A stretch of DNA of 64,000 nucleotides, from positions 124,001-188,000 of the forward strand of contig NZ_CP012643.1 of assembly GCF_001310085.1 (NCBI RefSeq). Direction: 5' to 3'. The translations under genes and the position numbers were made by a program. Under the pieces are notes generated by a model, which saw only the letters and a list, made by a program, of their open reading frames with translations, made no database searches and was not told where the DNA came from. Of this stretch, positions 9,650-44,539 are shown piece by piece (position 1 is the first letter of the stretch; each line of letters opens with the position of its first letter). Origin of the DNA: Rufibacter tibetensis. Its GTDB lineage: Bacteria > Bacteroidota > Bacteroidia > Cytophagales > Hymenobacteraceae.

Positions 9650-9814
9650 GAATTCTCCCCTAGAGGGGAGCGTCAAGAGGTGTTTACACCTGCCGGTTCA
9701 CGCATTGCTGTTTATTCTTCGCTTCCCTTATGAGAAGATGCCTTTAAAATGATCTCCGAAATACGTGCTCTCTTGTGTAAACACCCCCTCTTTATCTCCC
9801 CTCAAGGGGAGAAT
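9650..9814. repeat. Inverted-repeat element, family A, copy 1
   Basis: Two arms of about 40 nt (9650-9690 and 9775-9814) face each other around an 84-nt spacer. Each arm contains a short internal hairpin (CTCCCCTAGAGGGGAG or CTCCCCTCAAGGGGAG) and a GTGTTTAC or GTAAACAC block. Copies occur at 35626-35789 and 44362-44539. The element has no reading frame. It fills much of the 430-bp gap between the xylanase and the aminotransferase. Confidence 0.75.
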
Positions 9815-9935
9815 CTTCGTTGAAGAGGCGTATATGTTTATGTTAAAGAGGGGCTATCAGTGCAAATCAAGTGTATTAGCTAAAGGCTTTCTCAACTGCC
9901 AAATTCTCGTTGGCTGCTGTTAACCTTTACACCAA

Positions 9936-10787
9936 CTACACTGCCGTTATTTGAGCTTCTTCCAAAGCAATAAGATCTTGCAACAAATCCAGCGACACGG
10001 TTCCCGGCTTTCCATCTCCTATTGGATTTCCGTCTACCTCTACAATGGGCAGAACGCGTTTGGTGGTGCTGGTCATGAACGCTTCTTTTGCTTGCGCGAT
10101 GTCGTCGAGCGTAACGGTGCCTTCTTCCACCCTGTACTTTTTGCCGGCTAGTTCCAGCACGTTTTTACGGGTGATGCCTTTCAAAATTTCATGGGCTGGG
10201 GTGAGGATGGTATTGTCTTCTTTCACCAAAAAAAAGTTACTGCGCGGAAACTCAGACACCACGCCCTTCTGGTGGTATAACACATCATCGGCTCCTTTGG
10301 CTTTCACCTGCTGAATGAGCTTTATTCCCACAATATAGTTGATGGTTTTTGCCGCCGCCAGCTCCCGCACATATTCATGCGTGATGACCTTGATGCCTGT
10401 AGCCACCTGTGCTTCGGAGGGCAAGGTAAGCGGCTGTTCCATCATGATCAGGTTAGGTGGGCCAGGATTGTATCCATTCTCAGAATAGCCGCCGGTTAAA
10501 AGCATTTTCACCCCAGATTCAGAGAGGCCGTTCATCTGAATCAACCCCGTGATGGTAGCTACTAACTCTTCTTCGGAAAGCGGTACCTCCAGCCCCATGA
10601 GCAAGGCCGAGGCATAGAACCGATTGAGGTAATCTTCCAGGAAAAGTGGTTGTCCATGATGGGTTTTGAAAAAGTCAAAGATACCGTAGCCGCGTTGAAT
10701 GGCCAGGTCACTCACGTGAAGGTAAGCGCTTTCCAGGGGCAGGATCTCTTCGTGCAGGTACGCGTACAATTTATGGTTTGATAACAT
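9936..10787 (-). CDS. Class IV aminotransferase (branched-chain or D-amino-acid transaminase-like)
   Basis: PLP-dependent fold-type IV enzyme, 283 residues. The pattern fits the family: RGYGIFDFFKT near the N-terminus, Arg56 in LNRFYASA, Lys147 in AAAKTINY as the PLP lysine, the glutamate of VVSEFPRSNFF, and the later LKGITRKNVLELA. Relatives include IlvE, D-alanine aminotransferase and 4-amino-4-deoxychorismate lyase; the sequence does not separate these with confidence. Its start overlaps the end of the upstream DmpA-type peptidase gene by 17 nt, so the two are probably translationally coupled. Confidence 0.85.
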   Translation of the reverse strand: MLSNHKLYAYLHEEILPLESAYLHVSDLAIQRGYGIFDFFKTHHGQPLFLEDYLNRFYASALLMGLEVPLSEEELVATITGLIQMNGLSESGVKMLLTGGYSENGYNPGPPNLIMMEQPLTLPSEAQVATGIKVITHEYVRELAAAKTINYIVGIKLIQQVKAKGADDVLYHQKGVVSEFPRSNFFLVKEDNTILTPAHEILKGITRKNVLELAGKKYRVEEGTVTLDDIAQAKEAFMTSTTKRVLPIVEVDGNPIGDGKPGTVSLDLLQDLIALEEAQITAV

Positions 10788-11910
10788 GGTGTTTCTTTAA
10801 GATGTCAAGGGTTTTCTCCAGAGGCAGTGCCTCTACTTTGTTTTTGTCTTTTCCAACAATGGTTTCTGCTTTGAACAGGGAATTGAGAATGGCTTCTTCG
10901 GTGGCTTCAATGGTGGCCATGAACAAAGGAGACATTTCATCATTTCTGAGCAGCGTCACCGTTTGGGTTCTCTCTCTACTTTCATACGGAACCCGCAGCC
11001 CTGGGTGTGCAGAAAAAGAAATCACGTAATCACCGCTGCCGTTGGAGGCAATACCGCCGGTTTTGCCCAAGCCCAGCATAGCACGTTTAGCCATTCGCTC
11101 CAGGTTGCGGGCATCTACGGGTGCATCGGTGGCCACCACGATCATGCAGGAGCCATCGGCTTTCTCCATAATCTGCTGCCGGAATGAAAAACGCTCGAGC
11201 TCCTCTCCTACCGGAGCACCGGCAATCTGCAGCACGCCCCCAAAGTTGGTTTGCACCAGCACGCCTACTGTATATCCCCCTAAACTAGGCGGCAATTTCC
11301 GGGAGGAGGTTCCAATGCCGCCTTTGAACCCGAAGCAGATGGTACCGGTACCCGCACCTACGTTCCCCTCTTCCACCTCTCCGTCTTTCGCTTTCTGAAT
11401 GGCTTCCAGCACGTGCTTCTCTGTCACGTGACGGCCCCTGATGTCGTTCAAGCCACCGTCATTGGTTTCGCCCACCAAGGCGTTCACCGATTGCACCTTT
11501 TCATTGCCGGGCTGTTGCAGGGTGTGGGTAATCACCGCGTTCATGGCCGTAGCTACGCTCAGGGTGTTGGTTAAGATAATGGGCGACTCCAGGTTTCCCA
11601 GCTCCTGCACCTGTGAACTGCCGGCTAACTTCCCAAAGCCGTTGCCCACGTACACGGCCGCCAGTACTTTCTCCTGGAACAGGTTACCGGCGTGCGGCAG
11701 AATGGCGCTGACACCCGTCCGCACCTCGGTGCCTTTGTTCAGCGTAACCTGGCCCACCTGCACACCGGCTACATCGGTGATGGCGTTTAACTTTCCGGTG
11801 GGCAGAACGCCTATTTTTATGCCATATTCCCTAAGCCTTTTCCGTTGCTGGGCATGAGTTTGAGCTAGAAAGACCATCATGAAAAGACAAATTATGAATA
11901 CTTGTTTCAT
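10771..11910 (-). CDS. P1-family (DmpA/BapA-like, S58) aminopeptidase
   Basis: N-terminal nucleophile hydrolase that self-cleaves into two chains and releases N-terminal residues from peptides, amides or beta-peptides. From the ATG at 11910 it has 379 residues; the frame also extends two codons up to a TTG at 11916, which I do not favour. A signal peptide ends near TQTHAQ. Family features include ITDVAGVQVGQ, LVGETNDGGLND, VGAGTGT and KGGIGTSSR. The expected autocleavage is Gly-Ser in ADGSCMIVVATDAP (nucleophile about Ser254). It overlaps the aminotransferase by 17 nt. An extracytoplasmic location is inferred from the signal peptide. Confidence 0.88.
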   Translation of the reverse strand: MKQVFIICLFMMVFLAQTHAQQRKRLREYGIKIGVLPTGKLNAITDVAGVQVGQVTLNKGTEVRTGVSAILPHAGNLFQEKVLAAVYVGNGFGKLAGSSQVQELGNLESPIILTNTLSVATAMNAVITHTLQQPGNEKVQSVNALVGETNDGGLNDIRGRHVTEKHVLEAIQKAKDGEVEEGNVGAGTGTICFGFKGGIGTSSRKLPPSLGGYTVGVLVQTNFGGVLQIAGAPVGEELERFSFRQQIMEKADGSCMIVVATDAPVDARNLERMAKRAMLGLGKTGGIASNGSGDYVISFSAHPGLRVPYESRERTQTVTLLRNDEMSPLFMATIEATEEAILNSLFKAETIVGKDKNKVEALPLEKTLDILKKHHVIKP

Positions 11911-12071
11911 GCGCAAGAGGTAGTTACCGGGTTAAATCTATATGTTCTGCGGGAATAAAGCTCTCCTTAAAGTGAGGTAATCCTGTTTTGAGGCTTGATT
12001 CAGGAAAAAGGCTTGAAAGAAGGATTTCATAATTGTGTTAGATGAAGTATCTTTCTACAAAATCCAAACGA

Positions 12072-13712
12072 ATGAACAGACGCAATTTCTTAAGATCCGG
12101 TTCTTTGGCCGGAATCTCCTTTTCAGCTTTGGGGTTGGGCGCCTGCGCCACCTCAGTTACCAGCAATACTGCCCAGGAAAGCACCTCCGCTACGGCAGAA
12201 ATTTCACCTACAGACTTTCAATTAAATGAGGCTACTATCCAGGACTTGCAGCGCAGAATGCAGTCTGGTGAGTTGACGTCAAAAGCAATTACCCAACTGT
12301 ACCTGGACCGCATAAAAGCCGTGGATAAGAGCGGACCTAAAACCAACTCGGTGATTGAGGTGAACCCAGACGCCATCCAGATTGCCGAAGCCATGGACCA
12401 GGAACGCAAAGCCGGCAAAGCACGCGGACCGCTGCACGGCATTCCGGTAATGGTGAAAGACAACGTAGACACCCATGATAAAATGAGCACTTCGGCTGGA
12501 GCTTTGGCTCTAGCTGAAAATAAAGCAACCAAAGATGCTTTCATTGTAAGCCAATTGCGGGCTGCCGGAGCTGTTTTAATTGGGAAAACTAACCTGAGCG
12601 AGTGGGCCAACTTCCGGTCAACAGAGTCTTCCAGCGGCTGGAGCGGACGTGGCGGGCAAACCAAAAATGCTTACGTGTTAGACCGTACTCCTTGCGGTTC
12701 AAGCTCCGGTTCTGGAGTAGCCGTTTCTGCCAACCTGTGCGTGGTGGCTGTAGGGACTGAGACAAACGGTTCCATTGTGTGTCCATCGGCGGTAAGTGGC
12801 GTGGTAGGCTTTAAACCAACCGTTGGGCTGGTGAGCCGTTCCGGAATTATCCCGATCTCCCATACGCAGGACACCGCTGGTCCTATTGCCAGAACAGTGA
12901 CCGATGCCGCTATTCTATTAGGCATGTTGGCGGGCGTAGACCCCAACGACAGTGTCACCAAAGAAAGCACCGGCAAAGCCCAGACAGACTACACCAAGTT
13001 CTTGGATGCGAACAGCCTGCAAGGTAAGCGCATTGGCGTAGAGAAATCCTTCCTGAAAGGACACGTAGCCATTGATGCCATGTTGCAACAAGCCTTGGAG
13101 CAACTGAAAAGCAAGGGCGCTACCATAGTAGAAGTGGAAGTGATGAAGAAGATCAGAGAGGTCTCTGGCAACAGCTTCAAAATTCTGCAGTACGAGTTCA
13201 AAGACGGCGTAAACAAGTACCTGGCCACTGCCAACGCGAAGGTGAAAACCTTGTCTGACGTAATTGCCTGGAACAAGCAGAACGAGGCTACTTCTATGCC
13301 TTTCTTCAAGCAGGAAATCTTGGAAATGTCTGATAAACTAGGTGATCTGAATTCAAAGGAATACAAAGAGGCCTTAGCTAAGCAAGTCTCTGGTTCACGC
13401 GAAGCCATTGACAACATCATGAAAGAGCACAACCTGGATGCAATCACAGGTCCTACTTATGGTCCGTCCTGGTGCATTGACCTGGTAAACGGTGACTCAT
13501 TTACCGGTTACGGTCTTTCAACCCCTGCTGCCATTTCAGGCTATCCGCACATCACAGTTCCTATGGGACAGGTGCAAGGCTTACCGGTAGGCATTTCCTT
13601 CTTCGGCCGCGCCTATTCTGAGCCTCAACTACTGGGCATTGCGTACGCGTATGAGCAGGTTTCCAAGAACCGAAAAGCTCCGCAGTTCCTGAAAACAACC
13701 ATACCTTCATAA
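12072..13712 (+). CDS. Tat-exported amidase-signature lipoprotein
   Basis: Amidase-signature hydrolase with a Ser-cisSer-Lys triad: Lys129 (VMVKDNVDT), cis-Ser210 (CGSSSGSG) and nucleophile Ser234 (TETNGSIVCPSA), numbered from the ATG at 12072. That start gives a twin-arginine signal, MNRRNFLRSG, then a hydrophobic stretch and a possible lipobox (LGLGAC). An ATG at 12042 adds ten residues. The family includes peptide amidases and Glu/Asp-tRNA amidotransferase A subunits. Export and the absence of GatB/GatC neighbours argue against the tRNA role. The physiological substrate is unknown. Confidence 0.88.
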   Translation: MNRRNFLRSGSLAGISFSALGLGACATSVTSNTAQESTSATAEISPTDFQLNEATIQDLQRRMQSGELTSKAITQLYLDRIKAVDKSGPKTNSVIEVNPDAIQIAEAMDQERKAGKARGPLHGIPVMVKDNVDTHDKMSTSAGALALAENKATKDAFIVSQLRAAGAVLIGKTNLSEWANFRSTESSSGWSGRGGQTKNAYVLDRTPCGSSSGSGVAVSANLCVVAVGTETNGSIVCPSAVSGVVGFKPTVGLVSRSGIIPISHTQDTAGPIARTVTDAAILLGMLAGVDPNDSVTKESTGKAQTDYTKFLDANSLQGKRIGVEKSFLKGHVAIDAMLQQALEQLKSKGATIVEVEVMKKIREVSGNSFKILQYEFKDGVNKYLATANAKVKTLSDVIAWNKQNEATSMPFFKQEILEMSDKLGDLNSKEYKEALAKQVSGSREAIDNIMKEHNLDAITGPTYGPSWCIDLVNGDSFTGYGLSTPAAISGYPHITVPMGQVQGLPVGISFFGRAYSEPQLLGIAYAYEQVSKNRKAPQFLKTTIPS

Positions 13713-13756
13713 GCTTTCATTAAAGGCATGTTTTCTGAAAACAGGCGGTAAACAAG

Positions 13757-13804
13757 AGCAAAAGAAAAGGGCTGGAACAATTGTTCCAGCCCTTTTCTTT
13801 TGCT
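13757..13804. terminator. 48-bp perfect palindrome terminator
   Basis: Bases 13757-13804 form a 24+24 perfect palindrome (centre ACAATTGT) between the amidase and the convergent PepSY gene. It can serve both strands as a terminator. Confidence 0.8.
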
Positions 13805-13886
13805 AGACATGCAGTGCTCCTGCCAAGTTTCCAGAACTACTTTGGGGCTGATTTACTAGAATCAACCCCAAAGCAGCGGTTCTGGA

Positions 13887-15185
13887 CTATACCCTTGAAG
13901 CAACTTTTCTGGTTGGTGCTGTTTGCTTAGCTGATTTCTTTTTCAGCTTGTTCCACCAGATCAAGGTACCAGTGACAGGCAAGCTGGTAGCAATCAGGCA
14001 GCAGATGAAATAGATGATCTTGGAGAAAGTGCCGAAGATCTCCCCTACGTGCAGTCCTTTGACAGATGCCGCTATTTTTTCATTGAACTTCTTATCCGCG
14101 AACTTCTCTACTTTCAGTGGTTTGCCGGTGTACTGGTCCAGTTGCACTTTGTCAGCGGCCTGAAGGGTGAAGAAACCACTTTGCGATTTACTCAAGACCA
14201 CGGCTCCGGAAGAGTCGGCAGGCAGGGAGATGCGGTAGTTTCCTTTGTAAGGAAGAACCGCGTCAGTGGTATTGATGTAACTAACTATGGTTGGTTTCTG
14301 TAAAGCCATACCTGCCAGATCAGAGGTAAGCGGCTTTTCAGAGCGCTGTTTGAAAATCTGGTCACCTATGACGGCACTGGCTCCCTCGCGGTACCAATCA
14401 AACGACCAGCAAAGTCCGGTTAAAGCAATGATCAGCAACAGGAACGAGGAATAAAAGCCTAAGGAGTTGTGCAGGTCATGGTTAATGCGTTTCCAGTTAC
14501 CACTGGTTTTCACTTTCAGGCCTTGTTTCCAGTTCTTTATTTTTTTAGGGAACCAGATCACCAAGCCAGTGATAATGATGAAGACGAAGATGATGGTAGA
14601 ACCTCCCACGATGATCTTGCCGGGGTTCAGTTCACCAGGCTCCGCTTTCACCAGTAGAGTGCGGTGCAAGCCTTCCACGGCTTCAAAGAAACCGTGCGCC
14701 GGTCCTTCAGTAGTGCCTTTGATTTCACCGGTGTATTGATTGACCAGATACGTCTTACCGCGTCCTCCACCAGGGCCTCCTTTCTTTCCTTCTTTGCCTT
14801 TCCCGGCTGCAGGTCCGGCAACCATCGCCTGGGGAGCGTCCCCCTGTTTGGCTTTTTCTCCTTCCTGTTTACCGCTTTTTCCGCCCTCTTCTTTTTTAAG
14901 TGTGAAGCGGTAAGGTTTGGCAGGGTCTTGCGGAATTTGCAGAGCCGTTACTTTGCCTTTCTCCGCTTGCTGCAGTTTAGAGATAAGTTCATCTGGCGAA
15001 AGGGCTACCGCGTTGGCAGGTACCTCTACCTTGTATTTGCCGGGCTCCAACATCTCTTCCACTTCGGTGTGGAAGGTGAAGATGGTACCGGTAAGGCAAA
15101 CCAAAAACAACACCAATCCGCTGGCCAATCCTAGCCAAAGGTGAATGTCGTTGAACAATTTTCGCCAGGTAAACTCTTTTTTCAT
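13887..15185 (-). CDS. PepSY-associated membrane protein (PiuB-like)
   Basis: Inner-membrane protein of 432 residues with four likely transmembrane segments: WLGLASGLVLFLVCLTGTIF (about 17-36), a helix near 190-210 (IIVGGSTIIFVFIIITGLVIW), one near 245-265 (FYSSFLLLIIALTGLCW), and one near the C-terminus (IIYFICCLIATSLPVTGTLIWW). The family is often linked to siderophore or ferric-iron reduction. A Gly/Lys-rich low-complexity insert (about 120-150) interrupts the first periplasmic loop. The promoter carries an iron-box-like palindrome, which supports iron control. Exact activity is unknown. Confidence 0.85.
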   Translation of the reverse strand: MKKEFTWRKLFNDIHLWLGLASGLVLFLVCLTGTIFTFHTEVEEMLEPGKYKVEVPANAVALSPDELISKLQQAEKGKVTALQIPQDPAKPYRFTLKKEEGGKSGKQEGEKAKQGDAPQAMVAGPAAGKGKEGKKGGPGGGRGKTYLVNQYTGEIKGTTEGPAHGFFEAVEGLHRTLLVKAEPGELNPGKIIVGGSTIIFVFIIITGLVIWFPKKIKNWKQGLKVKTSGNWKRINHDLHNSLGFYSSFLLLIIALTGLCWSFDWYREGASAVIGDQIFKQRSEKPLTSDLAGMALQKPTIVSYINTTDAVLPYKGNYRISLPADSSGAVVLSKSQSGFFTLQAADKVQLDQYTGKPLKVEKFADKKFNEKIAASVKGLHVGEIFGTFSKIIYFICCLIATSLPVTGTLIWWNKLKKKSAKQTAPTRKVASRV

Positions 15186-15347
15186 GGGTGATCTTTCTCT
15201 TATAATGGATGATGGAGCTCAGTCTGGGGTTGCCTTTCCTGCTATCTTCTTTGGGTTTTATTCTAATTGATCACTCAATAAAAAACCCTCTGCTTCTCTA
15301 AATAACATACTTAAATATTATGAGACCGGCCTCAGACATAGCGAAGG

Positions 15348-15381
15348 CAAACTAACGATCTATTTAGATTAAATCCAAATA
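15348..15381 (-). promoter_or_regulatory. PepSY-gene promoter with embedded iron-box-like palindrome
   Basis: On the minus strand a TTTG (15376-15379) is followed after 20 nt by TTAGTTTG (15348-15355), one base from the -7 consensus. A 10-1-10 inverted repeat with one mismatch (15361-15381, core TTTAGATTAAATCCAAA) fills the spacer. Such Fur/DtxR-like sites are common before iron-uptake genes in this phylum, so repression by metal-loaded regulator is likely. The rest of the 370-bp gap up to 15555 shows nothing clear. Confidence 0.55.
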
Positions 15382-15555
15382 AAGAAAATAGCAAATGAAT
15401 AACAACGTAAAAACGCTTCACTATCAATTATTTATGGTGTATAGGTTTTATACCAATCAATACCTATTTATAAGGAAGTAGACCTTGTGTAGGCCTTTTC
15501 TCCCCTTTTATATAATGCAAGGTCTCCGTATCTTTCTGCGTATTTTTAATCTTTT

Positions 15556-18500
15556 ATGCTTAAGAAACTTATTTATACCGGGGCTTTGCTTTTTAGCACG
15601 GCAAGTGCGGTACAAGCTCAAAACGCACCCTCTTGGCTACGCTACTCCTCCATCTCACCAGACGGCCAAACCATTGTTTTCACCTACAAAGGCGATTTGT
15701 ACCGGGTACCAGCCAGTGGTGGAAACGCAGTACCTCTCACAGTCCATGAAGCGCATGATTTCATGCCAGTTTGGAGCAAAGACGGCAAAACCATCGTGTT
15801 TGCCTCAGATCGTTATGGCAACTTTGATTTGTTCCAGATGCCAGCCACTGGGGGCGAGGCGCAGCGCATGACGTTCCACTCGGCCAACGAGTACCCGTAT
15901 GAGTTCAGCCCCGATAGCAAAACTGTTTACTTTGGGTCTACCCGCATGGACATGGCTACAAACCGTCAGTTCCCTACGTTTGCTCAACCCGAGTTATACA
16001 AGGTGGCTTTAAGCGGCGGAAGAGTGCAGCAGATCCTGACTACTCCCGCCGAAGAAGTAAAGCTGAGCCAGAATGGCCAGATCATGCTGTACCAAGATAA
16101 AAAAGGGGGCGAAAACCAGTGGCGGAAGCACCATGTTTCTTCTGTGGCCCGCGACCTATGGAGCTATGACACTAAAACCGGCAAGCACACTAAACTCACC
16201 ACTTTTGCCGGTGAAGACCGTACCCCTGTTTTTGCCGATAATGACAAAACCATCTATTATTTAAGCGAGGAAAGCGGCACCTTCAACGTACACCGCATGG
16301 CCGCTGACAAACCAGGCGCCTCTACCCAGCTCACCAAGTTTACCAAACACCCAATACGGTTCCTGACCGCCTCCAACAATGGTTTGCTTTGCTTCGGGTT
16401 TGACGGAGATCTGTATACGATGCAGGCCAACGGTGCTCCGCAAAAAGTGAACGTGGTTATCAATACCGATGCTAAAACGAACAACGAGCGCATTGTACCG
16501 GTAGCCGGAAATGGCGTGCAGGATTTAGCCGTGTCGCCAAACGGCAAAGAAGTAGCCTTCATCTACCGCGGCGAAGTTTTTGTTTCAGCGGTGGAGGGAA
16601 GTGCAACCAAACGCATCACCAACACTCCAGAGCAGGAACGCCACGTAAGCTTCTCGCCAGACGGTAAGACCTTGATCTATGCCACGGAACGCGGCAAAGG
16701 TTGGAAAATCTACCAGACGCAGATCACTCGTAAAGAGGAGCCCTATTTCTACGCCTCTACCCTGCTCAACGAAACGCCCATCATCAACAACGAAAAGGAA
16801 AACTATGAGCCTCAGTTCTCGCCAGACGGCAAAGAGATCGCGTTTGTGGAAGACCGCATGACATTGAAGGTTTACAACATTGCTGATAAGAAAGTACGCA
16901 CCCTGCTCACCACCAATGAGCTGTTCTCCATGCGGGAGAACGACCAGTACTTTACCTGGAGCCCAGACAGCAAGTGGATTGCCTTTGACTTTTCAGAACC
17001 AGGTTTTGCCAACAGTGAAGTGGGCTTGATCTCTGCCGACGGCAAAAGCAAAAAGATCAACCTTACTGAAAGCGGCTATCAGGATGATTCTCCCCAGTGG
17101 ATGGCAGGCGGTAAAATGCTCATCTGGAACAGTACCCGTGAAGGCATGCGTGCTCAGGCCAACAGCGGCGGAGCGCAGTCAGACATCTTTGCCATGTTCA
17201 TGACCCAGGCCGCGTATGACAAATTCAGGTTAAGCAAAGAAGATTACGCCCTTATCAAAGAGCAGGAAGAAAAGGCTGCCAAAGAGAAGGAAAAAGAGAA
17301 AGACAAAAAGAAGAAAAAGGACGAAGAGGCACTGGCTATTGACTGGGAAGGATTAAAAACCCGCAAAGCACGCCTGACACTGCATTCTTCTCAATTAGGA
17401 GATGCCTTGGTTTCTAAAGACGGCGAGACATTGTATTACTTAGCTCGTTTTGAGAAAGGATACAACCTCTGGAGCACCAACCTTCGCACCAAGGAAACCA
17501 AAATGGCCGTGACGCTGAACGCCACCCGCGCCAGCATGGACTGGGACAAAGACTTCAAAAATCTGTTCCTGTTAGCCGATGGCCGGGTGATCAAGTTAGA
17601 CCCAACCGCCAACAAGCAGGAAAATGTGGCCATAAGCGGTGACATGAACCTGAACGTAGCTGCGGAACGTGCTTTCATGTTTGAGCACGTGTGGCGCCGC
17701 ACCAACAAGACTTTCTACACGGCTGGTTTCCACGGCGCCAACTGGGCTGCCTTGAAAGAAGACTATGAAAAGTACCTGCCACACATCAGCAACAACTACG
17801 AATTTTCTGAAATGCTGAGCGAATTGCTGGGCGAGCTGAACGTATCACACTCAGGATCCAGCTTCTCCAACGTCCCGGTAAATGCTGATGCAACGGCGTC
17901 TTTGGGGGTTTTCTATGACCAGAACTTTTTCGGAAACGGCCTCAAAATAGAAGAGGTGATTTTGGAAGGTCCACTGCAGAAAGCTGGTTTTGACGTGAAA
18001 CCGGGTATGATTATCGAGAAAATTGATGGCGAAACCCTTACTCCTGAGAAAGACTATGCCCAGTTCCTGAACCGCAAAGCAGGCAAGAACACCCTGCTGA
18101 CCATTTATGATCCGTCTTCTAAAAAGCGCAGAGACATCTCGGTAAAGCCTATCTCTGCAGGTGAAGAAAGCGGTTTGCTGTACAAGCGCTGGGTACGCCG
18201 CAACGCAGAGGAAGTAGATCGCCTGAGCAACGGCCAATTGGGCTACGTGCACATTCCAAGCATGAACGACCCTAGCTACCGCACCGTGTATGAGGAAGTG
18301 ATGGGCAAATACGCCAACCGCAAAGGCATGGTGGTAGACTCCCGTAACAACGGCGGTGGTGACCTGGTAGCAGACCTTGCCATGTTCCTGAGCGGTAAAA
18401 TGTTCCTGAACTACACCACAGACAATCGTGCCGTGGGTATTGAACCCGCTTTCAGATGGACGAAACCCAGTATTGCCTTAGCCAATGAAGCGAATTATTC

Positions 18501-18786: not shown

Positions 18787-18801
18787 TAAAGATACATTTA
18801 G

Positions 18802-18830
18802 AGAAAAGCCCGGTTCAGCCGGGCTTTTCT
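18802..18830. terminator. Terminator after the tricorn-like gene
   Basis: A 12-bp perfect stem (18802-18813 with 18819-18830) with a 5-nt loop, AGCCGGGCTTTT type. Confidence 0.85.
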
Positions 18831-18949
18831 GCTTTTAGGGCCATTGGAAAACATCAACAAGTTTATTGGTAAGTGTTTCAAGTGTCTTTTTCAGAAAATA
18901 GCCGTAAAAATGAAATGCTAAACTTCTCACACCCCTATGCCTTCGGCTT

Positions 18950-19495: not shown

Positions 19496-19769
19496 GGCGT
19501 CAGCCTTTGAAGGTATTCCACTTGTTTTGGCAATACTTTTCAGAAAAAGGGCTTAAAATGAAGTGTCAATTATTTCCCTCATCCTGCACATCGCTACTAA
19601 TTATCCTAAAAGTCCAATACTAAAAAGTCTGCTATTGCGTACTAGTTTACATAGTAGAGCAGAGTTGATTGGTGAAAGCCAATGAGACCAACGGGTAGTG
19701 GCTTTCTCCTTTTTCATAAGCCAACCCTGTCGCGAACCCATCTTTAACTTCGTAAAGGAACCACTGGAT

Positions 19770-21086: not shown

Positions 21087-21162
21087 ACGCTTTTCTTACC
21101 AAAAACTTAAAGCCTAAATAGAAGTAAAGTTTCACCATACCCAGCAATAAACTTCTTAATTG

Positions 21163-21473: not shown

Positions 21474-21477
21474 CACG

Positions 21478-32898: not shown

Positions 32899-32950
32899 CC
32901 TGGTAAAAGAATTTCTATTGCCAATATTGTGGGATTAAATTAGCACGCGT

Positions 32951-33097
32951 ATCGTCCCCCTTCGAAGGGGGGTAGGGGGATGATTACTCGTGCGGGTTAG
33001 GTATTCCCGAGAATCATTTTAAAGTTTTCTGTTACAGCTGTTCATTGTTTCTATAAGCGTCTTTGTCATCCCCCTACCCCCTTCAAAGGGGGACGAT
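32951..33097. repeat. Inverted-repeat element, family B
   Basis: C/G-rich arms of 32-33 nt (32951-32983 and 33066-33097) pair with one extra base and one mismatch. Each arm contains a small internal hairpin around TTCGAA or TTCAAA. An 82-nt AT-richer spacer lies between them. Layout matches families A and C, but the sequence differs. It is the only copy seen in this window. Confidence 0.65.
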
Positions 33098-33112
33098 ATA
33101 CCCAAAAACATA

Positions 33113-33160: not shown

Positions 33161-33178
33161 ATATTTGCTTAGCTTTAC

Positions 33179-35425: not shown

Positions 35426-35625
35426 GATAAGTAAAGTTTGTTTCAGAGATGCCTCAGGCACTTCTTCGGGTAAATTGAAATTTGAAGGTACTAAAAACAA
35501 CGCATAAACCTTTTGGATTATGCGAATGGCTAGGATAGCCTAAACTGAAGAAGCAATGAAACACGTTTCCGAGCTGTTGCTATGATATACTTTTTCCCAC
35601 AACACCAGCTTTGTCAAATCAATGC

Positions 35626-35789
35626 AGATTCTCCCCTTCAGGGGAGCTAGAGGGGTGTTTACACAGGAGAACATGCATTCCAAATCCAATTTCATTTGTA
35701 TCCTTCTCATTAGAAAAAGAAAGCAACCTCAGCAATGTATAGAACAGCAGGTGTAAACACCCCTCTAGCTCCCCTGAAGGGGAGAATCT
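35626..35789. repeat. Inverted-repeat element, family A, copy 2 (perfect arms)
   Basis: 39-nt arms at 35626-35664 and 35751-35789 are exact reverse complements, around an 86-nt spacer. Each contains CTCCCCTTCAGGGGAG (or its complement) and GTGTTTACAC. It occupies the 400-bp gap between the M3 peptidase and GH43 genes. Confidence 0.8.
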
Positions 35790-35825
35790 TCTCAGCCAAG
35801 CAGCATCAGAGATCAGGCAAACACA

Positions 35826-36836
35826 TTAAAGAGGCTTTCTGGCTACTCCTTCATTTGTCAGTTTCACCGGCTTTATGAAGCCTTGCTCATTAAAAAACAT
35901 TTGTTCAATGCAGGTGACGCGGTGATCTCTGTCAATTTCGGTTAAGGGGCGGCGGTGGTAGACAATGTACCTTTCATCTTTCTTGGGGACCTGAATGACG
36001 GAGTGATGTCCTGCGCCGGTGGCGATGGCCGGGTCTTGCTGTAGGATCTTTCCTACCCGTTTAAAAGGTCCGAAGGGTGAGTCTGCCACAGCGTTGGCCA
36101 CCGAGTAATCTGGTCCGGTCCAGCCGCCTTCAGACCACATGAAATAGTACTTCCCGTTCCGGATGAACATAAATGGGCCTTCCACATAGTTCTGCGGGGT
36201 GATCTCTTTGAACGTGGTGCCATCTGCAAAAGGAACAAAACCGGTGAAATCATCTTTCAGTTTGGCGATGTTGCAGTGCCGCCAGCCACCATAGATCAGG
36301 TAATATTGTCCGTCTTTGTCTTGGAACACAAACTGGTCAATTGGCTGCGCACCGTTATGAAACTTGTCCACTAACGGCTTGCCCAAGTAATCTTTGAACG
36401 GACCGTTAGGTTTATCTGCGACGGCTACGCCTATGCCGCCTACCTCCTGGTCACTTTGAATATCATTCGCCCCGAAGAACAGGAAGTACCTTTTGCCTTT
36501 CTGCACCACCGCCGGAGCCCACATGGCTTTGTTCGCCCATTTCACTGAAGCGGTATCAATAATCCGGTTATGCTTGGTCCAGGTAATCAGGTCCGGCGAG
36601 GAAAACGCATCCAGGTGCATCTGGTCTTTATACCGCGCGGAAAACGTAGGGTATATCCAGTACTTTTTGCCGAAGATGGTGCCTTCCGGGTCGGCGTACC
36701 ACCCCGGATAAACAGGGTTCCCTGCGGTTTTTGCGTTTGTGCTGTCACTGTCGGTCTTTGTTTGCGAAGTAGTACATGACGAGAGATGTACGTATAAGAA
36801 CGTAAATACCAAACAGGAACGCAGGAGCTTCTTCAT
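35826..36836 (-). CDS. GH43 glycosidase lipoprotein (arabinofuranosidase/xylosidase type)
   Basis: Five-bladed propeller glycosidase, 336 residues from the ATG at 36836 (MKKLLRSC), which gives a lipoprotein signal (LSSC). Catalytic residues fit GH43: Asp49 (GWYADPEG), the pKa modulator Asp166 (PIDQFVF) and acid Glu218 (YVEGPFMF). The family mainly removes arabinose or xylose side groups or ends. Subfamily cannot be decided from the sequence. It stands 27 kb from the xylan locus and has no SusCD partner, but it could complement GH10 and GH67. Confidence 0.88.
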   Translation of the reverse strand: MKKLLRSCLVFTFLYVHLSSCTTSQTKTDSDSTNAKTAGNPVYPGWYADPEGTIFGKKYWIYPTFSARYKDQMHLDAFSSPDLITWTKHNRIIDTASVKWANKAMWAPAVVQKGKRYFLFFGANDIQSDQEVGGIGVAVADKPNGPFKDYLGKPLVDKFHNGAQPIDQFVFQDKDGQYYLIYGGWRHCNIAKLKDDFTGFVPFADGTTFKEITPQNYVEGPFMFIRNGKYYFMWSEGGWTGPDYSVANAVADSPFGPFKRVGKILQQDPAIATGAGHHSVIQVPKKDERYIVYHRRPLTEIDRDHRVTCIEQMFFNEQGFIKPVKLTNEGVARKPL

Positions 36837-37121
36837 CTCGGTTAAAACATGGTTTAGGAGGGAATATAAGAAAATGCCTGATAAACCGGGAAGGCCGTAC
36901 AAAGGGATTGCCCCTATATTAAACGATATACACCAAAGTACATTTCTGCAGGGAAATTCTTGTGGTTGTCCTTTGCTGCAAGTCTCCTCACACCGTTCCC
37001 TGCCTGTTTTTTCATAACAACCCTAAAACACCAGAACGGCTCACTTGCTAGTGTAAAACCTGAACAGGAAATTCTTTCGGAAGAAAATTCCTACCTTCAA
37101 CCCCTCAGAAACAAGAGCCAC

Positions 37122-40100
37122 ATGGCGGAAAAAGAACAGGTACCCACGCAGGCAAGTGTACACCCCACAGAGTATTTTTTGGAAGGCGTTGATGGGGCAA
37201 CTCTCACCTATGCCCTTATTGCCCGCCACTCCTCCGCCGAGGCCATGGCGGGCGGCACCATCGGCTTTGACCTGCAACCTACGCACCTGGAGATTAACCG
37301 AGCAGTGATTTCAGGGGTGTCTCCGTTTGGCCGTTTTCCGGCCGTTTCGGTAAAACAGCTACCAAACGGACTGCTGCTTTCCTGCGGGTGCCAGGTGACT
37401 AAACGAGCCATGTGCGCGCACCAATCGCAGGTGCTGCAAACCCTGTTGAACCGGCAGGAGTTTAGGGTCTTTTTTGACGAAACGCTCCGGAAAGAAAAAA
37501 TAAGACCGGTAGCGGCAGAGTACGGCCTGGCCGAAGAGGAAAACCTGGACCAGTACTTTTTGCTGGAATACGCGAACAAAAGCCTGCTCATCAAGCCCCG
37601 GTTGACAGAGTTGTTGCCTATTACGGAGGAATCACAGGCTTTTTTGAAGGAGAAGCTCGTGCCTAAACAAGGACTGCCCTTTCTGCCCTCGGGCCCCAGC
37701 CCCAAAGAAAATACGCAGCGCATCATTGTGTTGGGCGAACATAAATACTACAAGCACCTGAGCGTGGAACTGCTGGAGGCGACCTCCACGCAAACCGGAA
37801 AGATTAAGAACCCGCTCAAAGCGCTGAGTCCGCTGGATTTTGTCTGGCAAACCAACCAGCCCGAGGAACTCAAGTTCTACACGGCGCTATCCCGTTTTCA
37901 GAACAACTACAACACCGAGCCCTCCGAAGCTGATCTGGAAGCCCTGAAAGCCTTGGTGCAGAATCCGCTGGGATTGGACGTGTACCAGCACAACGCAGAG
38001 GTTTCGGCCAACATCACGGCCAGTTCGGTGTCACCCATCCAGTTGAAGAAAGCGCCCTTGGACTTGGTATTGGAGGTGCAGGTGAAAGACAACTTTTACT
38101 CGGTCACGGCACTGCTGCACATTGAAGACCAACCGTACGCGTTGAAGCACCTGCAACTCAAGTACGGTCATTTCCTCCAGGTTCAGAACAGTTTGTATTT
38201 GCTGCACAACCCAGACTTGCGGCGCGTCATTGATTTTTTCCAGAAGCGCGGTTATTACCTGCTGGTGCATGCGTCCAAGTTTGAGGAATTCCGGGAGAAC
38301 ATTCTGGCTAACCTGGAAACCCGAATCAAGATCTCGTACTCTTTCCTAAAGCCGGCCACGCCGAAGCAATTGGAAGAACAAGGCTTTGACGGAGGGCGGG
38401 AACAGATTATTTACCTTTCAGAATCTGATGATAACGTGCTGCTGACGCCGGTCATGCGCTACGGCCACGTAGAGGTTCCGGTGTTCTCACAGAAGCAGAT
38501 TTACGCGACTGATGTGCTGGGTAATTCCTTCACGGTGACCCGCGACAAGGAAGCCGAGCTGCAGTTTCTGGCCGTGGTGCTCAAGCAGCATCCGTTCTTC
38601 AAAGAGCAACTGCACCTGGACTGCTTTTACCTGCACAAATACCGCTTTCTGGACCAGGACTGGTTTCTTGAGGCGTTTGATACCTGGCGGAACAAAGACA
38701 TTACCGTGCTCGGCTTCAAAGAACTCAAAGCCTCCAACCTGAACCCGCACAAAGTCAAAATTACCATTCTGGTGACCAGCGGCATCAACTGGTTTGACAC
38801 CTCGCTGGATGTGCAGTTCGGGAAACAAAAGGCCTCACTCAAGAACCTGCACAAAACGCTGCGCAACAAAAGCCGCTTCGTGCAACTGGACGATGGTTCT
38901 CAGGGCATTCTGCCTCAGGAGTGGATAGAGAAACTTAAACGCTTTTTTGAGCGCTCAGAGGTGGTGGGCGAACGCCTGCGCACGCCCAAAATCAACTTCG
39001 CCATCATTGAAGAACTCTACAAGGAGGAAGTGCTGAGCCAGGAAGTGCGCCAGGAACTAGCTACCTACCGGAAAAAGCTCGCCAATTTTGAAGCCATTCC
39101 TGAGGTAGCTGTTCCCGCCGAGTTGAAAGCCACGCTCCGCACGTACCAGCAGCAGGGCCTCAATTGGCTTTCGTTCCTGGACCAGTTCAACTTTGGCGGC
39201 TGCCTGGCAGATGACATGGGATTGGGGAAAACGGTGCAGGTTCTGGCTTTCCTGCTCTCGCAGCGCGGCAAAGTAGCCCGCAACACCAACCTGGTGGTGG
39301 TGCCTACGTCGCTGTTATTTAACTGGCAGGAAGAAGTGGCCAAGTTCGCGCCTTCGCTCAAAATTTTGACGGTGTACGGGAACCACCGCGTCAAAAATCC
39401 GCAGGAATTGTATGGATACGAACTGGTGCTCACCACGTATGGCACGCTGCTGTCAGACATTCTGGTGCTGAAGGAATATCGGTTCAACTACATCGTCCTG
39501 GACGAGTCGCAGAACATCAAGAACCCCGAGAGCCAGCGGTACCGGGCGGTGCGGTTGTTGCAGGCCCGCAACCGAATAGTGATGACAGGTACCCCGCTGG
39601 AAAATAATACCTACGACCTGTACGGACAGCTTTCCTTCGCCTGTCCCGGACTGCTGGGCAACAAACGCTTTTTCCGGGATCATTACTCCAAACCCATTGA
39701 CCAGTTCAAGAGCAGCGTACGGGCCGCCGAGTTACAGCGTAAAATTAGTCCGTTTCTGCTGCGGCGCACCAAAGAGCAGGTAGCCAAAGAATTGCCGGAC
39801 AAAACCGAGATGGTGCTGTATTGCGAGATGGGTACCGAGCAGCGCCAAGTCTACGCTGCTTATGAACTGGAAATCCGGGAATTCATTTCGGCCCAAGCCG
39901 AGGAGGAAATCCAGAAGAATCCCATGCACGTGCTGCGTGGCCTCACCAAACTGCGCCAGATTTGCAACTCCCCCGCCCTGCTGCCTGAGGAAGCTTCGTT
40001 TGGCGAGGCTTCATCTAAACTGAACGTGTTGCTGGAGCAGATTGAAAGCAAGGCGCCGCACCACAAGATCCTGGTGTTCTCGCAGTTTGTATCCATGCTG

Positions 40101-40514
40101 GAACTGATTAAGAAAGAGCTGAATGTCCGCGGCATCAAGTACTCCATGCTCACCGGTCAGACCAAAGACCGACAGGGCGCGGTGGCGGCGTTCCAGGAGC
40201 AGGAAGACGTGCGCGTGTTCCTCATCAGCCTGAAAGCGGGCGGCACCGGCCTCAACCTCACCCGCGCCGATTATGTGTACCTGGTAGACCCGTGGTGGAA
40301 CCCCGCCGTGGAAAACCAGGCCATTGACCGCACTTACCGCATAGGCCAGGAGAAAAACGTAGTCGCCGTCCGCCTCATCTGCCCCGATACCGTGGAGGAG
40401 AAAATCATGAAGTTGCAGGCGAGTAAGAAAGACCTGGTAAAGGATCTAATTAAGACCGATGGTGGTATGCTGAAAGCTTTTAGTAAGCAGGAGTTATTGG
40501 CTTTATTGGGGTGA
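37122..40514 (+). CDS. SWIM zinc-finger and SNF2-family helicase/ATPase
   Basis: A 1130-residue SNF2-type DNA translocase, starting at 37122 (MAEKEQVPT). The N-terminal SWIM finger is CGC...CAH (about 85-103). After a long middle region come the ATPase motifs: DDMGLGKT (about 697-704), the DESQ box in VLDESQNIKNP, TGTPLENN, and the C-terminal helicase domain with KAGGTGLNLT and AIDRTYRIGQ. This layout is common in Bacteroidota as a RapA/SNF2-like protein, probably acting in DNA-bound protein remodelling. The 54 in-frame codons upstream look non-coding. Confidence 0.92.
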   Translation: MAEKEQVPTQASVHPTEYFLEGVDGATLTYALIARHSSAEAMAGGTIGFDLQPTHLEINRAVISGVSPFGRFPAVSVKQLPNGLLLSCGCQVTKRAMCAHQSQVLQTLLNRQEFRVFFDETLRKEKIRPVAAEYGLAEEENLDQYFLLEYANKSLLIKPRLTELLPITEESQAFLKEKLVPKQGLPFLPSGPSPKENTQRIIVLGEHKYYKHLSVELLEATSTQTGKIKNPLKALSPLDFVWQTNQPEELKFYTALSRFQNNYNTEPSEADLEALKALVQNPLGLDVYQHNAEVSANITASSVSPIQLKKAPLDLVLEVQVKDNFYSVTALLHIEDQPYALKHLQLKYGHFLQVQNSLYLLHNPDLRRVIDFFQKRGYYLLVHASKFEEFRENILANLETRIKISYSFLKPATPKQLEEQGFDGGREQIIYLSESDDNVLLTPVMRYGHVEVPVFSQKQIYATDVLGNSFTVTRDKEAELQFLAVVLKQHPFFKEQLHLDCFYLHKYRFLDQDWFLEAFDTWRNKDITVLGFKELKASNLNPHKVKITILVTSGINWFDTSLDVQFGKQKASLKNLHKTLRNKSRFVQLDDGSQGILPQEWIEKLKRFFERSEVVGERLRTPKINFAIIEELYKEEVLSQEVRQELATYRKKLANFEAIPEVAVPAELKATLRTYQQQGLNWLSFLDQFNFGGCLADDMGLGKTVQVLAFLLSQRGKVARNTNLVVVPTSLLFNWQEEVAKFAPSLKILTVYGNHRVKNPQELYGYELVLTTYGTLLSDILVLKEYRFNYIVLDESQNIKNPESQRYRAVRLLQARNRIVMTGTPLENNTYDLYGQLSFACPGLLGNKRFFRDHYSKPIDQFKSSVRAAELQRKISPFLLRRTKEQVAKELPDKTEMVLYCEMGTEQRQVYAAYELEIREFISAQAEEEIQKNPMHVLRGLTKLRQICNSPALLPEEASFGEASSKLNVLLEQIESKAPHHKILVFSQFVSMLELIKKELNVRGIKYSMLTGQTKDRQGAVAAFQEQEDVRVFLISLKAGGTGLNLTRADYVYLVDPWWNPAVENQAIDRTYRIGQEKNVVAVRLICPDTVEEKIMKLQASKKDLVKDLIKTDGGMLKAFSKQELLALLG

Positions 40515-41106
40515 GTTAGGTTTTTGGGTGTTTTTGGGGATATAATCTTAAAATAGATGTACTATGGGTGCATGCCTAAAGCTGTTCCCTTGGTTTGTCC
40601 GCTTTTCTCGTAGGTGCATGTGCAGGGTTGTTTCATAAATGCTGCTATGCGCTCACGGCCGCGAGACCCCGTCTTCCCCTCTCGCACTGCCCTTTTGGCC
40701 TGAGCTGTCCGTACCTTTTAGTTCAAGTATATCTAGGGCCAAAAGCGAGGCGCTCGATGGAAAGACTAGAACGGGGGAAAGTAGCGGAAGAATGGGGATG
40801 ACCTTTGCATCCCAAATCTTGGCCTTTACGCTTATGTTCAAGTAAGGTCCCTTACCCTCTCATTTTCAAGCATGTTTTGATTTCTGAGAACTCAGATTTA
40901 CTTATGTGACTTACTAAATTGGCATTGATGAAGGAAGATCTCTCCCCCTTTTTTTGTTTTTGGGATTATTTAGACAAAACAGATTAAAAGCGGAAGAACA
41001 TAACTGGGAGCTTGAAAGCCTCAGCAACGTTCTTCTGCTTTTAACCTGAATTTCATAAAACTGCCTGGAAGCTACAAGACTGGAGAATGGCTCCAGGCCT
41101 AGATTA
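40515..41106. other. 592-bp gap with a GC-rich patch and a terminator hairpin
   Basis: No gene is supported. Bases 40640-40800 are unusually GC-rich and contain two small overlapping frames that look spurious. Bases 40984-40999 pair with 41029-41044 (one G-U) as a likely terminator for the minus-strand gene that ends at 41107. Confidence 0.5.
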
Positions 41107-41880
41107 TTATTTCTGAGTCAGATCAAGTAAGGAGATGGTGTATTCTTTGGTGGAAGCGTTGTAGGAATAGCTGTACCGTTGAGGATACAAGCCTGGTACC
41201 TGGTACTGGGTAGGTTGCGGGATAGGAATGGTTTGGGTGCCTACTGTTGGCAAGGTATTCAGATAGGCCAGGGTGAACATAGGCTCATGGAAGATGAAAT
41301 TTCCGTCAACGGAACCATAGATAAAGGTTTTAGCGAAGTTACCCGGTGAGTTGTTTACATCTGAGATATCAACCCAGTGCGCTCCCATGGCCGGAACCAC
41401 GCCCGGGGTGAGTACATAATTTTGTGGCCTGAACTGCGAAGCAGGCATTTCGTCCATGGCAGCCTGGCCTTTAATTTCAGCTACTTCTTCCGGTGAGATC
41501 ATGTAGAAATGCAGGTCAAAGTGAGGCACTCCGTACAAGGGTGCGGGGTCATGGCCCTGGGGGTTCCAATCCAGCATGACGTGGTCGTAAAGCGTTTGTT
41601 CTGCCTGTTCCGGTAAGTCGAGGATGTACATCCGCATGGCGTTGCCTAAGTTTCCTTTCACTGCCTGCTCAGAGAATGTGACGCCCAGAGAGACTGGCAC
41701 TCCAACGTCATTAGTGGTCACCCAGGTTCTTACATTTCCCTGCGTCAACGCTACAATTGGACCATAAAACGTACCCGCCAGTTCTTCGTCATCGTCGTCA
41801 GAACAGGTAGTAAACAAGCTTAAACAGGCCAAAGCACTGCACCATAACACTGCCTTGGTAAATAGAAAATTCGTTTTCAT
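41107..41880 (-). CDS. DUF5602-like lipoprotein
   Basis: A 257-residue lipoprotein, starting at 41880 (MKTNFLFTKAVLW) with Cys following FTT (LFTTCSDDDDEE). The body resembles DUF5602/TTHB210-type domains: DVGVPVSLGVTFSEQAV, PHFDLHFYMISPEE and GAHWVDISDV. The His-x-Asp pair in FDLHFY might bind metal. Function unknown. I prefer this start to the in-frame ATG at 41892, which adds only MSTP. Confidence 0.65.
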   Translation of the reverse strand: MKTNFLFTKAVLWCSALACLSLFTTCSDDDDEELAGTFYGPIVALTQGNVRTWVTTNDVGVPVSLGVTFSEQAVKGNLGNAMRMYILDLPEQAEQTLYDHVMLDWNPQGHDPAPLYGVPHFDLHFYMISPEEVAEIKGQAAMDEMPASQFRPQNYVLTPGVVPAMGAHWVDISDVNNSPGNFAKTFIYGSVDGNFIFHEPMFTLAYLNTLPTVGTQTIPIPQPTQYQVPGLYPQRYSYSYNASTKEYTISLLDLTQK

Positions 41881-42477
41881 AGGAGTAGACAAGATTTGGA
41901 TTTGAAAAGAAGGGATGGGTCAGGTTCAGAAGTGCTTATCAGTAGAGGAGGCACTGACCGAGGGCGGGTGTGAAGTACAAGAAGGGCAATTTAATGGACG
42001 TGCAAAACGCCGGTAGATGGGGCTGAATCTCCGCTGAGGGAGGAAAGAGAAAGCTGGACACCCCGCGCAGTTTCCATAGTCTGAAAAGGGCAAGGTGATA
42101 GCGGTTTGTTTTCTACTTTGATTTTCAAAAAAGAGCATGAGGCGTTTCCTTATGCTTTGCTGTTCTTCAAACACCTTACCCGGTTCTTAGGGAAAAGGAA
42201 CGTTGGTAAGATGAATGTCTATTGAAAATAACTACATTCTATTAATAATTCAACAAATAAGGAGTTTTATCTATTAAAATCATTATTTGTAAGTAGTCTT
42301 TCCTTCATGATCCTAGTAAAAAGCTTTTGCTTCTATCAGGATTGTAATTGTGAAAGCTTGTAAGTTGCTACCTCATTCCCTTAGAGTTAATCTCCGGCCG
42401 AAGCACTTCTGGTAAACCTAAGCCCTTCTATTGAGGTAAAGAGTAAGAATTATCTGTCTTCACCTAATCAAATAGGC
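41881..42477. other. 597-bp gap between the lipoprotein and gamma-glutamyltransferase
   Basis: A minus-strand frame at 41926-42174 (82 codons, with two Cys-x2-Cys-like groups) is open, but it has weak protein character and I do not annotate it. The rest is AT-rich, and nothing regulatory is clear. Confidence 0.4.
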
Positions 42478-44169
42478 GTGATCATCCGGAAAATCTCCTT
42501 TCTTCTTTTCTTCTTTAGCTTTATAGGTTGCACTAACCGCAATCTCCATAAAACAGGTCTGGTGGCAGATAAAGCCATGGTGGTGACGGCGCACCCGCTG
42601 GCCTCTGCCGTGGGCGCGCAGATCCTGAAACGCGGGGGAAATGCCGTAGATGCTGCCGTTGCCGTTCAGTTTGCCCTGGCCGTAGTGTATCCCGATGCCG
42701 GGAACATTGGCGGCGGCGGTTTTCTGGTACTTCGGCAAAAAGACGGATCTATCAATGCCCTGGATTACCGCGAGAAAGCCCCCGCCAAAGCACACCGCGA
42801 CATGTACCTGAACGGCCAGGGCGAAGTCATCGAAAATTTAAGTTACAAGGGACACCTGGCGGCAGGTGTGCCCGGCACGGTAGATGGCATGGTGCAGGCG
42901 CATGAAAAGTACGGCAGCCTCCCTTGGACTGACCTGGTGCAGCCTGCGGTACTTTTAGCAGCAAAAGGGTTTCCCCTCACCCAAAAAGAAGCTAAAAAGT
43001 TGAATGAGCAACGAAAAGACTTCCTCCAATTCAACACCCAACGACCCGAGTTCATTTTGAAAAATCGCTGGCGGGAAGGTGATACGCTTCGCCTGCTTGA
43101 CCTGGCCCATACCTTAGAAAGAATCAGAGACAAAGGAAGAGCCGGTTTTTACGAGGGCCCAACCGCAGCGTTGATTACGGCAGAAATGGAACGTGGCAAA
43201 GGCATTATCTCGAAAACGGACCTTGCCAATTACCGGTCGGTGTGGCGTACCCCTATTGCAGGACAAGTAGGCGTATACCGGGTTATCTCCATGCCTCCCC
43301 CATCAAGCGGCGGCATTGCGTTGATTCAGTTGCTTACCATTGCCCAAGACTATCCCCTGAAAGACTGGGGATGGAACACCGTGGCCACAAGTCACCTCAT
43401 GGTAGAGGCTGAACGACGGATTTATGCTGATCGGGCACGGCACTTTGGCGACGCTGATTTCTATGAAGTTCCGGTAAAAGGCCTCTTAAACCCAGCCTAC
43501 ATCAAGAGCAGAATGAAAGGCTACACCCCTAAAAAAGCTACTCCCAGCGAGGAGGTTTCCGCGGGGGTGCCTCCCCTGCCTGAAGGGCCAAACACCACCC
43601 ACTACTCTATTGTGGATGCCCAGGGTAACGCCGTGTCAGTGACGACCACCCTGAACAGCAGCTTCGGGAATAAAGTGTTTGTGGCCGGTGCTGGCTTCCT
43701 GCTCAACAACGAGATGGACGACTTCAGCATCAAACCCGGTTTTCCTAACAGCTACGGTTTGATTGGCGAAGAAGCCAATGCCATTGCTCCCGGCAAACGG
43801 ATGCTCAGCTCCATGACGCCCACCATCTTGGAAAAAGACGGAAAGCTGTTCATGGTCATCGGGGCCATGGGCGGCTCCACCATCATTACAACCGTGTACC
43901 AGATCATCCAGAATGTAACAGTACATGGCCACACCATGCAGGGTGCCGTCAACGCCGGTCGTTTCCATCACCAATGGAAACCCAACTGGATTCTCACAGA
44001 ATGGGGTGCACTAGGGCCACTAACCGGAGCCGGGCTCTGGATCAAAGGCCACAAGATTGCGCCTAAGTATGGGGGCATCGGGAGAGCCGCGGGTATTCTG
44101 GTTTTACCTAATGGGAAGCTGGAAGGAGGCGCAGACCCACGGGGCGATGATGCCGCTGCGGGATTTTAG
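42478..44169 (+). CDS. ggt: Gamma-glutamyltransferase
   Basis: Cleaves or transfers the gamma-glutamyl group of glutathione and similar compounds. The 563-residue precursor starts at a GTG (MIIRKISFLL after initiation) with a lipobox (IGCTN). Family motifs are clear: RGGNAVDAAVAVQFALAVVYP, GGGGFLVL, VPGTVDGM, and the autocleavage site PNTTHYSIVD with nucleophile Thr373. GSSFG- and MSSM-type residues also match (LSSMTPTILEKDG). A periplasmic, lipid-anchored location is likely. Confidence 0.93.
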   Translation: MIIRKISFLLFFFSFIGCTNRNLHKTGLVADKAMVVTAHPLASAVGAQILKRGGNAVDAAVAVQFALAVVYPDAGNIGGGGFLVLRQKDGSINALDYREKAPAKAHRDMYLNGQGEVIENLSYKGHLAAGVPGTVDGMVQAHEKYGSLPWTDLVQPAVLLAAKGFPLTQKEAKKLNEQRKDFLQFNTQRPEFILKNRWREGDTLRLLDLAHTLERIRDKGRAGFYEGPTAALITAEMERGKGIISKTDLANYRSVWRTPIAGQVGVYRVISMPPPSSGGIALIQLLTIAQDYPLKDWGWNTVATSHLMVEAERRIYADRARHFGDADFYEVPVKGLLNPAYIKSRMKGYTPKKATPSEEVSAGVPPLPEGPNTTHYSIVDAQGNAVSVTTTLNSSFGNKVFVAGAGFLLNNEMDDFSIKPGFPNSYGLIGEEANAIAPGKRMLSSMTPTILEKDGKLFMVIGAMGGSTIITTVYQIIQNVTVHGHTMQGAVNAGRFHHQWKPNWILTEWGALGPLTGAGLWIKGHKIAPKYGGIGRAAGILVLPNGKLEGGADPRGDDAAAGF

Positions 44170-44361
44170 ATTAATCTTATTTATTTGAATTATAAGTGGT
44201 GGTAGTTCCTTGGAGGTACCCTTTTTCTGTTGGATCTTTAAAGAGGTAATACAAAAGGCTCTCACACAGACGGATACATCTTGTGTCCTAGCCAAATAAC
44301 AGCACATCAAAAAGGAACTTCTTCCATTAGGCCTCAACTACTCCACTGCGGTGGTCAGCAC

Positions 44362-44539
44362 AGATTCTCCCCTTGAGGGGAGATAAAGAGGGGTGTTTAC
44401 ATCTAGTGATTTAAAATTTTCTATTAGCTTCTTCCCCTTTGTATTCGCTACAAAAGGGGTATCAATATCCATTTGCATTATGCTGGAAACGTTTAGATCG
44501 ACAGGTGTAAACACCCCTCTTCGCTCCCCTCAAGGGGAG
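44362..44539. repeat. Inverted-repeat element, family A, copy 3
   Basis: Arms at 44362-44400 and 44507-44539 with the same hairpin core and GTGTTTAC block as copies 1 and 2. The right end is altered, with an extra GAAGAGGGGT. It fills the gap between ggt and the MFS gene. Confidence 0.7.

Follow-up and report, generated by a model that had tools for sequence, protein, structure and literature searches.

Paired C-rich palindromes of the Rufibacter tibetensis genome and their possible REPIN/RAYT-like partnership with a stand-alone DUF559 nuclease

The closest described counterparts of the repeats reported here are the REPIN/RAYT (TnpA-REP) systems, with which they share inverted palindromic pairs dispersed between genes, the occurrence of non-coding copies alongside a member that has one gene and is flanked by matching repeats, and repeats that co-vary with the enzyme (PMC3116915, PMC8266576). 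Palindromic repeats without a known enzyme exist in bacteria as well, e.g. the CGTC repeats described in a further report (PMC3733652). The domain of central interest below is DUF559, for which the Pfam entry gives the function as unknown; in Caulobacter, a DUF559-domain protein encoded by a DNA damage-inducible gene is described as a Vsr-like endonuclease (PMC12907096). No description of DUF559 paired with inverted repeats was found in a literature search outside of which most subscription journals lay.

The window, i.e. the whole stretch of DNA analysed (64,000 nucleotides; main contig, bases 124001-188000, in a genome of 5.41 Mb), harbors three gene-less arm pairs to which no strand is assigned. 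Element 1 spans 9650-9815 (left arm approximately 9650-9689, right arm approximately 9775-9815), element 2 spans 35626-35789 (arms 35626-35664 and 35751-35789) and element 3 spans 44362-44539 (left arm approximately 44362-44401, right arm approximately 44506-44539). Re-reading of the window sequence located all three where the preliminary description had placed them and confirmed that the arms are inverted, about 35-40 nt long and that each comprises a GGGGTGTTTACA block as well as a CTCCCC hairpin. Their position between genes is likewise borne out by the flanking genes, which are, in order, GH10 and a class IV aminotransferase, an M3 peptidase and GH43, and a gamma-glutamyltranspeptidase and MFS. 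At up to two mismatches CTCCCCTNNAGGGGAG has six matches in the window, precisely the six arm hairpins, compared to a mean of 0.20 and a maximum of 2 in the shuffled window. The 39-nt arms of element 2 are 100% complementary and separated by 86 nt, and as folded single-stranded DNA the element reaches -52.8 kcal/mol (z -11.9; 0 of 200 shuffles equal), while the arms of elements 1 and 3 are imperfect. Past its right hairpin element 3 is extended by CGAAGAGGGGT (44540-44550, no strand assigned), the mirror image of the inner part of the arm. A search of the window for known RNA families at gathering scores returned nothing but one tRNA. Two further repeats were noted in the window, namely a hairpin pair at 32950-33098, CCCCCTTCGAAGGGGG with GGGGATGA, which has many matches in two sister species, and at about 40600-40780 a repeat outside the CTCCCC family with several partial matches in the genomes G063 and G022.

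Genome-wide, the CTCCCC family comprises at least 20 arm pairs. The GGGGTGTTTACA block has 38 exact matches, and 77 at up to one mismatch versus 11 for the reversed control; by hand count, 22 of the 38 form 11 pairs, plus followed by minus, spaced 87-116 nt. The hairpin TCTCCCCTTGAGGGGAG, at up to two mismatches, has 63 matches versus none in the control, some sites being counted on both strands because the motif is palindromic. A strict arm pattern applied to 25 loci, a set defined without L040 and the one-mismatch loci L058-L071, yielded 20 pairs (19 gene-less, one gene-bearing) and five non-pairs, with a distance between the arms of 41-102 nt in the gene-less pairs versus 414 nt in the gene-bearing one. 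In the copies read, the arm consists of GATTCTCCCCTTGAGGGGAG, a short linker and GAGGGGTGTTTACA, followed by a tail, either CAGGAGAGCACGCATT or CCTGCTGGTCCACGCATT. By eye, most of the 21 inner sequences start with one tail and finish with the other, and the element is therefore directional. A third arm variant, near CTCCCCCTTTGAAGGGGGCGAAGGGGGATGTTTACAC, is present at L040, L059 and L062-L066, and at L038 an arm pair occurs with a large open reading frame, read as of glycoside hydrolase type, a solo arm following 3 kb further.

The spacers, called unrelated in the preliminary description, are so for the most part, but a few share sequence. The 25 loci gave 21 inner sequences and these 19 spacers of sufficient length for comparison, of which 4 of 171 pairs align well, compared to a mean of 0.05 in shuffled sets. 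Element 2 with its spacer matches copies of the sister species G063 at 78% over about 165 nt. Among family copies the arm stays near identical while the spacers drift. Conserved spacers together with target-site duplications had been named as the signs of an ordinary MITE; besides the few similar spacers, no target-site duplication was seen at the 20 pairs, where abutting repeats of up to 11 nt were sought and none longer than 3 nt was present (an abutting 3-nt repeat occurs at 2 of 20). In four copies (L046, L047, L053 and L057) the same arm has, at one and the same position, a similar double-hairpin insert, an indication that gene-less elements are copied whole.

The gene-bearing arm pair lies outside the window at C1:1687605-1688094, has both arms intact and encloses an open frame of 123 aa. 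This frame matches Pfam DUF559 (PF04480) with 102 bits (cut-off 20.6) and is the sole DUF559 match of the genome; DUF559 is also the only gene seen within CTCCCC-family arms, where the transposase search covered Y1/RAYT models. Superimposing the predicted fold (pLDDT 91) on the PDB with Foldseek gave as best matches 3hrl (E 5.4e-7) and the homing endonuclease I-Bth0305I (3r3p, E 5.1e-5), with E. coli Vsr weaker (1vsr, E 0.1), and judging from this model the enclosed gene is predicted to code for a Vsr/EDxHD-type endonuclease. Four residues, E27, D55, H72 and D79, are invariant among 14 aligned DUF559 proteins, and we take them to be the EDxHD pattern. Defence models gave weak matches to 14 DUF559 proteins, including restriction and homing enzymes. 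As judged by dN/dS (median 0.22, and below 1 in all 95 gene pairs with dS of 0.05-1.5), the gene is under purifying selection.

We prefer, with a probability of roughly 0.55, the reading that the three elements belong, as copies without a gene, to a dispersed palindromic family in which DUF559 fills the role of the RAYT; a duo of the REPIN/RAYT kind, but with an unrelated enzyme, explains the data most economically. The DUF559 protein would mobilise the repeats by recognising and binding the palindromes of its own arms and cutting one or both strands at them. Cutting would drive the spread, in that repair would transfer copies of the arm pair, either gene-bearing or gene-less, to new positions between genes or, alternatively, convert existing arms.

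Flanking repeats were assessed by a score, the local alignment of the upstream flank to the reverse complement of the downstream flank. DUF559 (PF04480) is present in 134 of 150 genomes of the host bacterial family, and the first 60 listed matches whose frame does not exceed 190 aa were scored after exclusion of one contig-edge match and two with inner stops. For these stand-alone genes the median score is 69.5 versus 18 for 734 other open reading frames of the same loci; 57 of the 60 exceed the 99th percentile of the controls and 54 the highest control, 34. Gene and arms are strongly associated as one unit. Outside the family the control sets are smaller and less clean. Among Bacteroidota, 40 matches were taken by the same rule, with three contig-edge matches excluded; of the 38 scored, 19 exceed the 99th percentile of 175 controls and 9 the highest control. 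For 80 named loci from several phyla (7 unscored, 349 controls) 16 of 32 frames of at most 200 aa pass versus 5 of 41 longer ones, one control at 97 standing above all DUF559 loci but one. About half of the stand-alone DUF559 genes outside the family are without high-scoring flanking repeats, and E. coli ycjD shows no high-scoring flanking inverted repeats either; hence, the pairing is near universal in the host family and frequent but not universal elsewhere. With the DUF559 protein of L158 as query, 26 plasmid and 2 phage records match, the phage matches covering less than 80% or barely 80%. Ten plasmid loci were fetched; three, all Deinococcus, score above 40 and seven score 16-28, which argues against generality. 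At a Sphingomonas plasmid locus scoring 19, inspection by eye shows a hairpin to either side of the gene; the score missed them because the start rule had placed the start upstream of the left hairpin.

Arm sequence tracks nuclease lineage inside genera. Over the 57 over-threshold elements, arm and protein similarity correlate with rho 0.56 for all pairs and 0.74 for the 501 same-genus pairs from different genomes, values that none of 2000 within-genus permutations reached in either case. In the ten genomes with two or more DUF559 loci, dissimilar lineages of one genome tend to have dissimilar arms, G097 and G044 being partial exceptions. All 15 genomes chosen for holding arms of about the commonest type contain an arm hairpin of that type, which is not seen once in the reversed control. 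By our reading, pairs too short for the gene occur beside gene-bearing pairs, e.g. 3 and 1 in G079. The arm can point in either direction: in the host genome its CACCCC block is on the gene side, and in Deinococcus and many relatives it is found on the outer side of the hairpin. In G097 we counted, in addition, 21 C-rich hairpin pairs spaced 200-388 nt, a further size class. Of the arm type combining CTCCCC with GTGTTTACAC a single gene-bearing copy was seen. A second one was sought in the sister species G063, where three DUF559 matches were counted; the one locus fetched has a different arm.

A RAYT elsewhere in the genome had been suggested as the enzyme serving the three elements, given that their layout copies that of the RAYT-flanking ones. 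The likeness in layout holds, but a second RAYT in this role is not supported. Searches with two RAYT models found one gene above the cut-off, which is that of the window (62780-63325, minus strand, with its elements at 62548-62717 and 63423-63599), and one weak, divergent RAYT-like frame of 182 aa (L430, C1:4753059-4753526), which has GGACAGGTCGCGACCTGTCC repeats both in its surroundings and within it; both carry other repeats. A candidate enzyme does exist elsewhere in the genome, but as far as the searches show it is the DUF559 endonuclease and no RAYT.

The same separation is observed throughout the host bacterial family. Of 30 RAYT loci 28 remained after two exclusions and served as positive control, 22 passing the threshold applied to DUF559. 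At least one flank has a C-rich hairpin in 56 of 60 DUF559 genes, none of the 28 RAYT genes and 47 of the 691 control frames, and both flanks have one in 37, 0 and 0, respectively. With a CACCC tag required in addition, one flank or more qualifies in 46, 0 and 34, and both do in 23, 0 and 0. RAYT and DUF559 genes of the family therefore carry separate repeat classes. This bears on the first alternative, in which REPIN-type repeats are mobilised in trans by the host RAYT and DUF559 is a passenger caught between the arms. Apart from the common layout, it can draw on the inner core GCACGCATTGCTGA, which is shared by the window RAYT elements and some CTCCCC arms, the outer arms being different; of its 19 genome matches (0 in the control) 14 read as RAYT-type arms, 2 as CTCCCC arms and 3 as neither, and this sharing is left unexplained by the DUF559 reading. 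Furthermore, the GGGGWSAS shared by published terminal inverted repeats beside RAYT-like genes of other phyla (PMC3733652) fits GGGGTGAG of some DUF559 arms. But the 28 RAYT genes are without C-rich hairpins, 22 having other inverted repeats, and a chance passenger accounts neither for 57 of 60 DUF559 genes standing between inverted repeats nor for arms that follow the DUF559 lineage within genera. We consider it unlikely.

The set of occupied sites varies between species. The genomes G063 and G022 were compared at the sites of elements 2 and 3, of window 32950-33098 and of the DUF559 gene, the last of these also in four further genomes; synteny to sister species could not be followed at element 1. 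Element 2 is absent from the orthologous site in both, the element 3 site of G063 holds another copy, and the site of 32950-33098 in G063 carries a CTCCCC copy. At the host DUF559 site G037 has no element, G022 a bare palindrome, GATTCTTTTCTTGAAGGGAGAATC, and G063 a different pair of hairpins. The sister species compared yielded no empty site exact to the nucleotide, and the exact ends are not recoverable because the intergenic flanks have diverged too far. In Deinococcus megaplasmids, DUF559 with matching arms lies within the paa operon in one species but is missing from it in a second (paaD-DUF559-paaZ in D. psychrotolerans, no insert in Deinococcus sp. QL22); in the hpa cluster it is found at different places in several species, as a short remnant in D. 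wulumuqiensis and not at all in strain D7000. The sufB/sufC interval contains, by eye, gene-less C-rich hairpin pairs in Xanthomonas sacchari and Azospirillum B510 and DUF559 in Sphingomonas parapaucimobilis.

A second alternative resembles homing, as DUF559 would cut pre-existing solo palindromes and repair would copy the gene and the inner part from an arm-matched element, the arms having been spread earlier by something else. It would agree with the fold of an EDxHD homing endonuclease, with near-identical arms around drifting spacers, with the lack of visible target-site duplications and with the lone palindrome that G022 has in place of the gene-bearing copy. This palindrome may, however, just as well have been left by a deletion between two hairpins, and no palindrome of the same type was seen at the paaD-paaZ site of QL22, the one insert-free operon compared; we regard this course of events as improbable. 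Static, immobile repeats acting at gene ends as transcription terminators or mRNA stabilisers would suit three intergenic elements and the strong fold of element 2, but are very unlikely in view of the species-dependent occupancy of the element 2 and 32950-33098 sites and of the one extra hairpin insert common to four copies.

The REPIN/RAYT-like duo with DUF559 remains our preferred reading; the main reasons for caution are the inner core shared with the RAYT elements, the single gene-bearing example for the CTCCCC arm type and the genome G022, which has no DUF559 match yet carries CTCCCC-family copies. The pairing of palindromes and nuclease across many bacteria points to a mobile element of a kind for which we found no description. 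The broader proposal, that a widespread class of bacterial mobile elements uses a small Vsr/EDxHD-fold endonuclease and no transposase to disperse paired C-rich palindromes, and that many orphan C-rich intergenic palindromes of several phyla are its gene-less offspring, is tentative and falls slightly short of even odds. The pairing ties enzyme-less palindromic repeats to a domain of unknown function and provides a testable role for each. If the nuclease does move the repeats, it would represent another, unrelated way of solving the REPIN/RAYT problem, and a hairpin-targeting enzyme of very small size.

Compared with REPIN/RAYT systems, dispersed inverted pairs are found here too, their intergenic position having been checked for the three window elements, whereas neither of the two RAYT-like genes of the genome is flanked by the CTCCCC repeat. 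The enzyme is a DUF559 (Vsr/EDxHD-like) endonuclease instead of an HUH tyrosine transposase, and the arms are C-rich hairpins among which, in those read by eye, no GTAG tag was seen. IS-derived MITEs are similarly short and non-coding with inverted ends, but the CTCCCC elements differ in their mostly unrelated spacers, 4 of 171 pairs of which are similar, and in that no target-site duplication was seen. TIRtrons (PMC3733652) likewise consist of a small gene enclosed by inverted repeats, some of them also found gene-less and some with GGGGWSAS, but their genes code for tyrosine transposases and not for nucleases of the DUF559 fold. EDxHD homing endonucleases such as I-Bth0305I, as well as Vsr, share the predicted fold of DUF559, which differs in that it is not intronic but stands alone between palindromes and, in the host genome, measures 123 aa.
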